From Rhodopseudomonas sp. (lineage in GTDB: Bacteria > Pseudomonadota > Alphaproteobacteria > Rhizobiales > Xanthobacteraceae), in NCBI GenBank assembly GCA_016124795.1, contig WGNB01000008.1, positions 1 to 44,662 of the forward strand: 44,662 bases of DNA, read 5' to 3'. Under the pieces are notes generated by a model. The model did not search any database. It had not been told where the DNA came from and saw only the letters and a list, made by a program, of their open reading frames with translations. Positions 1,036 to 34,061 of this stretch are shown piece by piece (positions within the stretch are counted from its first letter, which is position 1; each line of letters begins with the position of its first letter). Both the position numbers and the translations under genes were made by a program.

Positions 1036-1064
1036 TTGACATGCTTCCTATAAGATCGTATACC
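1036..1064 (+). promoter_or_regulatory. Predicted sigma70-like promoter upstream of structured repeat A
   Basis: A perfect TTGACA (1036-1041) is followed after 17 bases by TATACC (1059-1064). Transcription would start near 1071 and run into the structured repeat that begins about 40 bases later. No protein gene lies downstream on this strand before the convergent deacetylase gene. Confidence 0.55.
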
Positions 1065-1112
1065 TATTCATGCCCGCCCCGACGAGAGGGGCCATGAACC
1101 GGTAGCGCCGGC

Positions 1113-1397
1113 TCGTGGGGGACGGGCACGGCGCCCGCGGGCGTGGCTTCGCTGGCCACGCGCTCGGGCGGCGCCGGGGCTCCGCTCGCGGGCACTAAGA
1201 CCCGCCGCCAGGAGCTGGCTGACGGTGCGCGCTACCCGCTTGATGCGGATCAGCCGCCGGAAGCGCGGCCCGGACGCCGGCAAAGACGCCGTGACGGCGC
1301 GCCGACAGGCGCCACGCACTCTGGAAACGGAGTGCGTGAAGCCAACAAGACGCCGCGCCTGTCGGTGCGCCGTCCCCCTCTTCTCGTTGGAAGAGGG
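1113..1397 (+). repeat. Structured intergenic repeat, copy A (candidate non-coding RNA)
   Basis: Non-coding, very GC-rich, matched by copy B at 25618-25910 in the other orientation. The best-conserved core is 1160-1282. Ordered hairpins: P1 GCGTGGC 1141-1147 / GCCACGC 1155-1161; P2 GCGGG 1188-1192 / CCCGC 1201-1205; P3 CCGC 1236-1239 / GCGG 1245-1248; P4, a long stem of 1293-1312 with 1355-1374 (19 of 20 pairs) continuing directly into 1313-1321 / 1330-1338 (9 of 9) with a 16-base bulge on the 3' side; P5 CCCTCTT 1376-1382 / AAGAGGG 1391-1397. Open frames across it are not preserved in frame-plus-length between the copies, so I read it as RNA or DNA structure. It could also be a non-autonomous mobile element. 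Confidence 0.65.
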
Positions 1398-1541
1398 CTC
1401 TCGCTCAAAACCCGGGCGCGCCGCGCCGCGGGAACGATGACGCTCATCCCGATGTCGGACACAGGTCCATGTTCTTTGCATCCGAACCGCCCGCGCCATC
1501 GCAAGCGCGCCGCGTCATTCGTGACGGCGCAACAACCTTGT
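1398..1541. other. Rest of the gap before the deacetylase gene
   Basis: After repeat A the sequence stays GC-rich and holds one more possible hairpin around 1506-1530 (GTCA-TTCG-TGAC at its tip), just past the stop of the deacetylase gene on the minus strand. There is no T-run after it on that strand, so it is a poor terminator. I see no gene here. Confidence 0.35.
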
Positions 1542-25224: not shown

Positions 25225-25617
25225 GGTTGTTTCATCCCCGATTTAAAGAAGAGCTGGCGGGAGATCGTCCCCCGACCCGGCGCCCGGACTGTCGAGGATG
25301 GCCGCTCTCGAAGGGGGCGCTTCACCTCAACCTGATAAATCGCGCGGACCATGCCAAAAACGTCGCAGCAAAGCAACGGCGGAAAGGCGCTGATTCCGTT
25401 GATCCTTTGGACGGTTGGGGACGACTCACCTCTTCGCGCGCCATTGGCTACTCGGCAAAGGCCAACCCACACGCGCTAATCGCGACAGTAAACAAACAAA
25501 CGCCAATGCTTCGCCGCGTCGTCAAACTTTCATATTATCGACTGAATTAACAAATAATCGGCGCGTTTCATCGCCCGTATTGTTCAAGGCCCCGGGCAGG
25601 CCGCCGCTATTATTTCA
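25225..25617. promoter_or_regulatory. Upstream region of hppA
   Basis: About 390 bases with no credible gene. The part at about 25480-25570 is clearly more AT-rich than its surroundings (for example the stretch around TCATATTATCGACTG at 25530-25545) and probably holds the hppA promoter on the minus strand, but no clean -35/-10 pair stands out. Transcripts from the promoter of repeat B would also enter here. Confidence 0.4.
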
Positions 25618-25910
25618 CCCTCAGAAAACACCGAGGGGTGGAGCGCCGCGTGGCGCCACATCGTGAACCGCACCATGCGAGGTGCGCGCGTCCTTTGGCG
25701 AAGGACGCTGCGCCCCGCGGCGCTCCACAGCGGTGTCTGACAGCGTCCGGGCCGCGCTTCTGGCGGCTGATCCGCTCTCGCGGGTAGCGCGCACCATCAG
25801 CCAGCTCCTGGCGGCAGGCCCTAGTGCCTGCGAGCGGAGCCCCGGCGCCGCCCGAGCGCCCGGGATTGCGTATCCCCCAGGCCCGCGGGCACCGCGCCCT
25901 GCTCCACCTC
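25618..25910 (-). repeat. Structured intergenic repeat, copy B (candidate non-coding RNA)
   Basis: Minus-strand counterpart of copy A at 1113-1397; best-conserved core 25742-25860, about 90% identical by eye. Read on the minus strand the same hairpins occur in the same order: P1 GGGAT 25872-25876 / ATCCC 25862-25866; P2 GCAGG 25827-25831 / CCTGC 25814-25818; P3 CCGC 25780-25783 / GCGG 25772-25775 with a GAGA loop; P4, a long branched stem with outer 13-base arms 25716-25728 and 25638-25650 and an inner hairpin 25701-25708 / 25688-25695; P5 CCCTC/GAGGG at 25618-25637. P1 and P4 use sequence unrelated to copy A, while P2 differs by a compensatory G-C to A-T change. Confidence 0.65.
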
Positions 25911-25953
25911 ACAACGCCTCATGAAGCGCCCTCGGATGAGCAGGACAGGAAGG

Positions 25954-25983
25954 ACTATAAGCATAGGACTAGTATCTCGTCAA
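25954..25983 (-). promoter_or_regulatory. Predicted sigma70-like promoter upstream of structured repeat B
   Basis: On the minus strand TTGACG (25978-25983) is followed after 18 bases by TATAGT (25954-25959), 5 of 6 matches in each box. The predicted start near 25947 lies about 35 bases before the repeat, mirroring the arrangement at copy A. Confidence 0.5.
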
Positions 25984-26479: not shown

Positions 26480-26779
26480 TCAAAACGAAAAGCCGCAACC
26501 GCTCGGATCGCTGCTTGTCCTCGCAAACCTGTTGCTATGTCAGCCGGGTGAGACCGGCCCGTCGTTACTCACTGGGTCGAGAACTGGATGCCCGTTTGCG
26601 CAAGCATGAGCGGCATTGAACCGCGCGAAATTCATTCCCGTCATTCCGGGGCTGGCCGAAGGCCAGAACCCGGAATCCAGACCCAGCTTCATAGTCGGAC
26701 ACGCCGTTATATGGCGCTGGATTCCGGGTTTGCGCTTTCAGCGCGCCCCGGAATGACGGACGACAGCAGAACGTCTCCG
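26480..26779. other. Intergenic region with a long palindromic repeat
   Basis: A 300-base convergent gap between the hypothetical gene and the MFS gene. Its second half is the repeat at 26638-26760; the first half shows nothing I can name. Confidence 0.5.
26638..26760. repeat. Long nested palindromic repeat, copy 1
   Basis: Outer arms CGTCATTCCGGGG (26639-26651) and CCCCGGAATGACGG (26746-26759) enclose a perfect 14-base inner inverted repeat AACCCGGAATCCAG (26667-26680) / CTGGATTCCGGGTT (26717-26730). A second copy is at 33931-34036. The nested-arm plan is typical of rhizobial interspersed repeats of the 'GTCATTCCGGGGC' type. Confidence 0.88.
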
Positions 26780-33930: not shown

Positions 33931-34036
33931 CGTCATTCCAGAGCACGCCGCAGACGTGAACCCGGAATCCAGATACAGGCACCGCGTCCGGTTCTGGATT
34001 CCGGGTTCGGCCCTGCGGGCCGCCCCGGAATGACAG
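33931..34036. repeat. Long nested palindromic repeat, copy 2
   Basis: Same plan as 26638-26760: outer arms CGTCATTCCAG (33931-33941) and CCCCGGAATGACAG (34023-34036), perfect inner arms AACCCGGAATCCAG (33959-33972) and CTGGATTCCGGGTT (33994-34007). The inner loop is much shorter than in copy 1. It fills the glyA-nrdR gap. Confidence 0.88.
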
Positions 34037-34061
34037 AATGTGCGAAACGACCGCACGATCT

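Follow-up and report, generated by a model that had tools for sequence, protein, structure and literature searches.

What is the sequence that occurs twice, once on each strand, in the 44,662-nucleotide stretch of contig WGNB01000008.1 of Rhodopseudomonas sp. analysed here (the window, meaning that whole stretch): an RNA gene, the leader of a neighbouring gene, a mobile element or an inert repeat? A preliminary description, made from the letters of the window, had proposed a promoter-linked structured repeat in two copies, A and B, and had suggested that it represents a new family of non-coding RNA.

Two copies of a structured unit

Both copies were present as described, but a covariance model of the core (R1) gave 15 matches in the genome, not two, and the conserved unit proved longer than the stretches initially drawn. 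The unit placed at 1113-1397 in copy A extends to about 1036-1436 (+), and that placed at 25618-25910 in copy B runs from about 25983 to 25569 (-). The parts of the two copies are as follows.

1036 to 1064, plus strand: promoter-like site of copy A, TTGACA-N17-TATACC, with TCCTA in the spacer (from the sequence)
1071 to 1436, plus strand: copy A, an A-type RNA, both ends inferred from the stretch conserved in relatives and paralogues
1072 to 1127, plus strand: 5' domain of copy A, GCCCGCCCC...GGGGGACGGGC closing a CCGG-TAGC-GCCGG hairpin (from the sequence and A-type relatives)
1125 to 1296, plus strand: seven-helix core of copy A (model R2, 130.7 bits, E = 6.2e-22)
1410 to 1436, plus strand: 3' domain of copy A, a nested hairpin CCCG[GGCGC..GCGCC]GCGGG (from the sequence and A-type relatives, by eye)
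25955 to 25983, minus strand: promoter-like site of copy B, TTGACG-N17-TTATAG (from the sequence)
25569 to 25948, minus strand: copy B, a B-type RNA, ends inferred from conservation in paralogues and hppA-linked orthologues
25726 to 25898, minus strand: seven-helix core of copy B (model R2, 129.2 bits, E = 1.2e-21)
25569 to 25603, minus strand: 3' H-type pseudoknot of copy B, GGCC..GCCCG..GGCC..AACAATA..CGGGC (from 35 distinct tails)

The promoter-like sites lie where they had been placed, and the hairpins that had been reported were also recovered. P1 is a variable first hairpin found in both copies, P2 carries a compensatory change (GCGGG/CCCGC in A, GCAGG/CCTGC in B), and P3 keeps its stem with a changed loop (CCGC-TTGAT-GCGG in A, CCGC-GAGA-GCGG in B). 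The identity of about 90% over about 120 bases that had been estimated by eye holds for the core, where 1160-1239 and 25780-25859 are 94% complementary over 80 nt and 1245-1287 and 25733-25775 are 88% complementary over 43 nt (both ungapped), but gapped BLAST gave 81% over query positions 12-200. The predicted folds of A and B lie 6.7 and 5.4 sd, respectively, below those of mononucleotide shuffles.

Covariation of the core and of the 3' end

The features of the two copies had together been taken as a sign of selection on RNA structure, and larger alignments, in which covariation is far above shuffled and slid controls, make us almost certain that such selection operates. From 154 loci we obtained 94 complete cores, 64 of which were kept. 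Alignment A1 holds 36 of these 64, aligned by sequence alone and omitting mainly those with long insertions; in a 42-pair structure it has 97.5% standard pairs, against 36.6-48.5% when one side of the structure is slid, and double changes in 23 of the 42 pairs. Alignment A2, made from 85 chosen loci that include other families, was fitted to the model, a procedure that favours the structure; in its 82 distinct sequences the share of paired cells is 95.0%, against 39.5-45.1% when slid, and double changes occur in 37 of the 42 pairs. Measured against tree-simulated alignments, four pairs scored above every one of the 60 nulls, with E = 0.08 for a fifth, and these pairs lie in three hairpins. Covariation was weaker in a full-length alignment of B-type copies, in which only P6 and one pair of the 3' arm had E < 0.05 and poorly pairing column pairs scored similarly (E = 0.08 and E = 0.6); we attribute this weakness to misaligned variable hairpins.

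B-type copies end in a covarying H-type pseudoknot: in 35 distinct sequences among 41 tails, 8.71 of its nine pairs are formed, compared with 7.30 (sd 0.14) when partners are swapped. A-type copies end instead, by eye, in a nested hairpin. The P5 octaloop, with its ACUANGA motif, shows few changes across families. A CsrB-like sponge, with GGAG in P6, was considered and dropped; the P6 loop is not conserved in several other families. There is no shared reading frame, as each frame is open in at most 24 of the 64 cores, and core lengths fall into all three classes modulo 3.

Copy number and distribution

The family consists of structured RNAs of roughly 370-420 nt, and the conserved unit runs from a -35 box to a compact 3' domain. 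BLAST found 18 matches in the genome of the window, two being pieces of one copy, and matches in 14 of 40 genomes, this one included. Within the genus, model R1 matched at least once in 33 of the 43 genomes, with 0 to 26 copies per genome. A broader model, R2, matched 23 of 397 sampled genomes of the order, our own included (22 of the 396 others), from eight families; in a sample of the class, our own genome alone matched among 337 (0 of the 336 others). Stricter filters were applied wherever more than 40 genomes were searched, which makes absences in those searches soft. One genome (G015) had no match in the genus-wide search, yet showed one in the survey of protein loci described below, and relatives in the same family (g18) had no match in the order-wide R2 search. 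A pattern scan of genomes returned at least 109 stretches, many of which, for example in Streptomyces, were unconfirmed by nhmmer. The single pattern match on a viral contig (L334) lacked a model match and was taken as chance.

Some paralogues are nearly identical although their flanks are unalike, such as L281 and L282 (94% over 438 nt). In genomes G010 and G182 the similarity between paralogues sets in near the -35 box and stops close to the 3' domain; some matches in G004 extend past the unit and, by eye, include other repeats. Five copies in the genome of the window lie at contig ends (G000 contigs C24, C67, C40, C70 and C7), so these repeats probably break assemblies.

Promoter-like sites

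Promoter-like sites lie upstream of 42 of the 64 copies, where shuffling predicts 1.0, and a downstream control gave none of 64; other copies have, by eye, a second promoter-like sequence beginning CTTATCCCC. We regard the copies as very probably transcribed independently. Palindromes such as TCCTA-N3-TAGGA lie between the -35 and -10 boxes of the promoters of L133, L082 and L053, and could be a possible operator common to copies.

A four-cysteine protein gene follows some copies

Within the genus, an ORF of roughly 105-150 codons that carries a CX4CRRX3C..C motif lies behind many of the A-type copies, and the motif also occurs behind RNA copies in other genera and families. The product, here called Cys4, is a small, arginine-rich protein, and thirteen such proteins share four invariant cysteines. 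No significant family was found for it in Pfam, NCBIfam, PADLOC, PHROGs or PDB sequences, and its AlphaFold model is poor (pLDDT 64.4).

A protein profile, seeded from the neighbours of the RNA, matched 26 of 43 genomes of the genus and 21 of 397 in the order, with one match in each of the latter. In the genus, 23 genomes have a protein match at E < 1e-9, and every one of them also has RNA matches. Ten others have RNA matches but lack a protein match at that threshold, which means that the protein is either not always needed or not always found. Eight genomes of the order have both RNA and protein, compared with 1.2 expected, a count to be read with the seeding of the profile in mind. When we surveyed 30 of the 35 protein matches in the genus, an RNA copy lay just upstream, on the same strand, at 25, with 172-437 nt between the end of the core and the matched protein stretch. 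Four of the five misses have less than 400 nt upstream before the contig ends; the fifth (G008) is a true miss, a protein gene with no RNA upstream. At the level of the order, RNA lies upstream at E < 1e-3 in eight of 21 protein loci, and at three more the best RNA match is rightly placed with E of 0.07-0.1; at L343, L344, L347 and L349 a look-alike promoter or 5' domain was seen by eye only. Eight loci (L369, L373, L380, L382, L383, L384, L346 and L353) were not among the RNA matches listed before the protein search; all eight have the RNA, which counts against seeding bias. The linkage of the RNA to the Cys4 gene suggests an RNA-protein partnership.

Copy A itself has no Cys4 gene in the window; the strong protein match of this genome lies on contig C38, next to a different A-type copy (L003, L335). 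One genome (G041) has eight RNA matches and one protein match. Five A-type copies (L004, L129, L057, L035 and L045) are followed by a different ORF, beginning MSTLLISHPAC, a 101-aa piece of which had no Pfam match at E <= 1e-8.

Neighbouring genes

The preliminary description held that copy A, with no gene after it on its own strand, is not a simple leader. The next gene (1542-2630) is indeed on the minus strand, and the statement holds for both A and B; some A-type copies in relatives, however, precede a same-strand protein gene. With ORFs called by a crude criterion, the GC content at codon positions, the nearest downstream neighbours were 36 on the same strand and 17 on the opposite one in a first survey (27 and 26 upstream) and 33 and 23 in a second (27 and 25 upstream). 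Copies are without strict orientation to their neighbours, and the fixed same-strand position 5' of genes that would mark a cis-regulatory element was found in neither survey. A HigB-like toxin ORF (PF05015) lies near copy A, at 617-904 on the minus strand of the window.

Several sites are shared between genomes. The RNA lies upstream of hppA at 15 of 30 hppA loci, our own included and one being partial at a contig end, and near the deacetylase gene beside copy A at 12 of 30 loci, our own included and some being partial. Several genomes without the RNA at hppA hold another gene there, and the block adjacent to hppA is similar in genomes with and without the RNA; we infer that this block is a promoter. 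In two families an RNA copy sits between serS and an upstream gene that is homologous in the two (58% over 267 aa) and that we take to be tatC. These old shared sites and the constraint on the fold speak for a function that keeps the copies in place.

A motif like GCTGTTTGACAATTGAATCGG, which we take to resemble the boxA of rRNA operons, lies within 450 nt downstream on the same strand of 17 of the 64 copies (for example L118, L012 and L033), compared with one of 64 upstream and none of 64 on the other strand, the motif having been chosen after it had been seen. By the crude ORF call, most copies with this motif face a convergent gene. For a comparison with rRNA leaders we sought 16S genes in three genomes of high completeness (G000, G004 and G010) and matched none of the three; these genes may be masked or missing from the sequences searched, and the name boxA is therefore provisional.

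A proposed role, and its rivals

We lean towards the explanation that copies A and B are independently transcribed structured RNA genes that act as RNA, probably as a component of a ribonucleoprotein with the Cys4 protein. The promoter would start transcription at the first stem, and the transcript would fold into the 5' domain, the seven-helix core with its ACUANGA loop, a long 3' arm and the compact 3' end, a nested hairpin in A-type copies and a pseudoknot in B-type copies. Many RNA-only copies are often found in a single genome, together with one or a few copies that have the Cys4 gene behind them on the same strand. The protein would bind the RNA, and perhaps metal as well; we consider the chances of direct contact between protein and RNA to be evenly balanced. 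The copy ahead of the Cys4 gene would serve as an autoregulatory leader, and copies that lack the protein gene, A and B among them, would act in trans as RNAs of that ribonucleoprotein.

Since the copies do spread, the foremost competing explanation is a dispersing mobile element. Here the copies with a protein gene would be autonomous, the RNA-only copies non-autonomous and the RNA part of the mobility machinery, which would fit a copy number of 0 to 26 within one genus, the near-identical paralogues with unlike flanks (L281/L282) and the five copies at contig ends. However, sites are common to many genomes and shared between families, no transposase was found among ten neighbours scanned with Pfam (other neighbours being inspected by eye), no target duplication was noticed by eye, and the family, copies A and B included, has no match in the plasmid and phage collections; we consider this explanation unlikely. 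A palindromic repeat of the REP or MITE kind, inert and without a function as RNA, would likewise be interspersed, multi-copy and palindromic, and other REP-like repeats do occur in the window. It is disfavoured because of the covariation, with double changes across families, and the conserved unpaired loops, promoter-like sites, pseudoknot and fixed neighbour gene make it very improbable.

Two other rivals give the RNA a regulatory role. It might be a cis-acting leader or attenuator of the downstream gene, as the same-strand excess of the first survey (36 against 17) and the A-type copies before the Cys4 gene would suggest; the second survey (33 against 23), the many copies that face a convergent gene, copy A among them, and the hppA gene, which keeps its own upstream block with or without the RNA, make this quite unlikely. 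Alternatively, the RNA-only copies might be decoys, with no other activity, for an RNA-binding protein that regulates the leader of its own gene. That a genome has many RNA copies for one or a few protein genes would agree with this, but the complexity and conservation of the cores seem greater than a decoy would require, and we think it improbable. The ribonucleoprotein reading that we prefer could also be taken further, to an order-wide system new to biology in which the RNA and Cys4 pair form the hub of up to 26 dispersed RNAs with shared ends and cores that can differ; we put this forward tentatively, as something that may well prove too bold. The RNA at the hppA site of genome G008 is a case of family ends with an unmatched core. 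This RNA-like unit (L157), upstream of hppA, has the promoter, 5' domain and 3' pseudoknot of the family and a core that neither the family model nor the profile matched, and is possibly a core swap.

Relation to known RNAs

The proposal of a new RNA family has survived comparison with the curated collections. Rfam 15 has no match to copies A and B; in the window only a tRNA reached the gathering score, the region of copy A gave seven matches at E <= 5, all sub-threshold, and eight loci at E <= 1 gave two sub-threshold matches, elsewhere. We recognized no description of the present RNA in published work, judged mostly from listings. The family appears to be new, since no curated RNA or protein family that we searched matches it. 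A large RNA with many copies per genome, a fold maintained in several families of the order and a link to an undescribed protein family points to an RNA-protein process that has so far escaped description.

As a kind, this large ornate RNA with a dedicated neighbour protein resembles OLE with OapA. OLE is a large, elaborate, conserved bacterial RNA with a dedicated protein partner, OapA; ROOL and GOLLD are similarly large, elaborate and conserved. The present RNA differs from all three in having no Rfam match, and hence no homology to OLE by that search, in its many copies per genome and in its different order, and from OLE also in that its neighbour is a cysteine-rich small protein, not OapA. 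Type III toxin-antitoxin systems (ToxIN) similarly have a structured RNA directly before a small protein gene, but most of our RNA copies have no protein gene, and no relatedness to toxins was seen: PADLOC gave no family for three Cys4 proteins and Pfam none over the cut-off.

Bradyrhizobium BjrC is a multi-copy rhizobial small RNA. Other small RNAs of alphaproteobacterial rhizobia, such as Bradyrhizobium BjsR and the alpha-r families, include some with several imperfect copies (PMC5082802). In contrast to BjsR, BjrC and the alpha-r families, the present RNA is much larger, has up to 26 copies, ends in a 3' pseudoknot in its B-type and is linked to a protein gene, BjsR being set apart by its description. 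Two candidate structured RNAs of Rhizobiales have been listed, Rhizobiales-2 as RF01723 and Rhizobiales-1 with no Rfam number (PMC2864571). The present family, which matched no Rfam family, is unlike Rhizobiales-2 as listed, and it might conceivably be identical to the Rhizobiales-1 candidate. Interspersed structured repeats of the same order, Br-REP1 and Br-REP2, are short palindromes as printed (PMC5082802), whereas the present unit is about 400 nt long, with promoter, core and covariation. The window also carries paired REP-like repeats, at 26638-26760 and 33931-34037, which resemble Br-REP2 in its printed form (PMC5082802).
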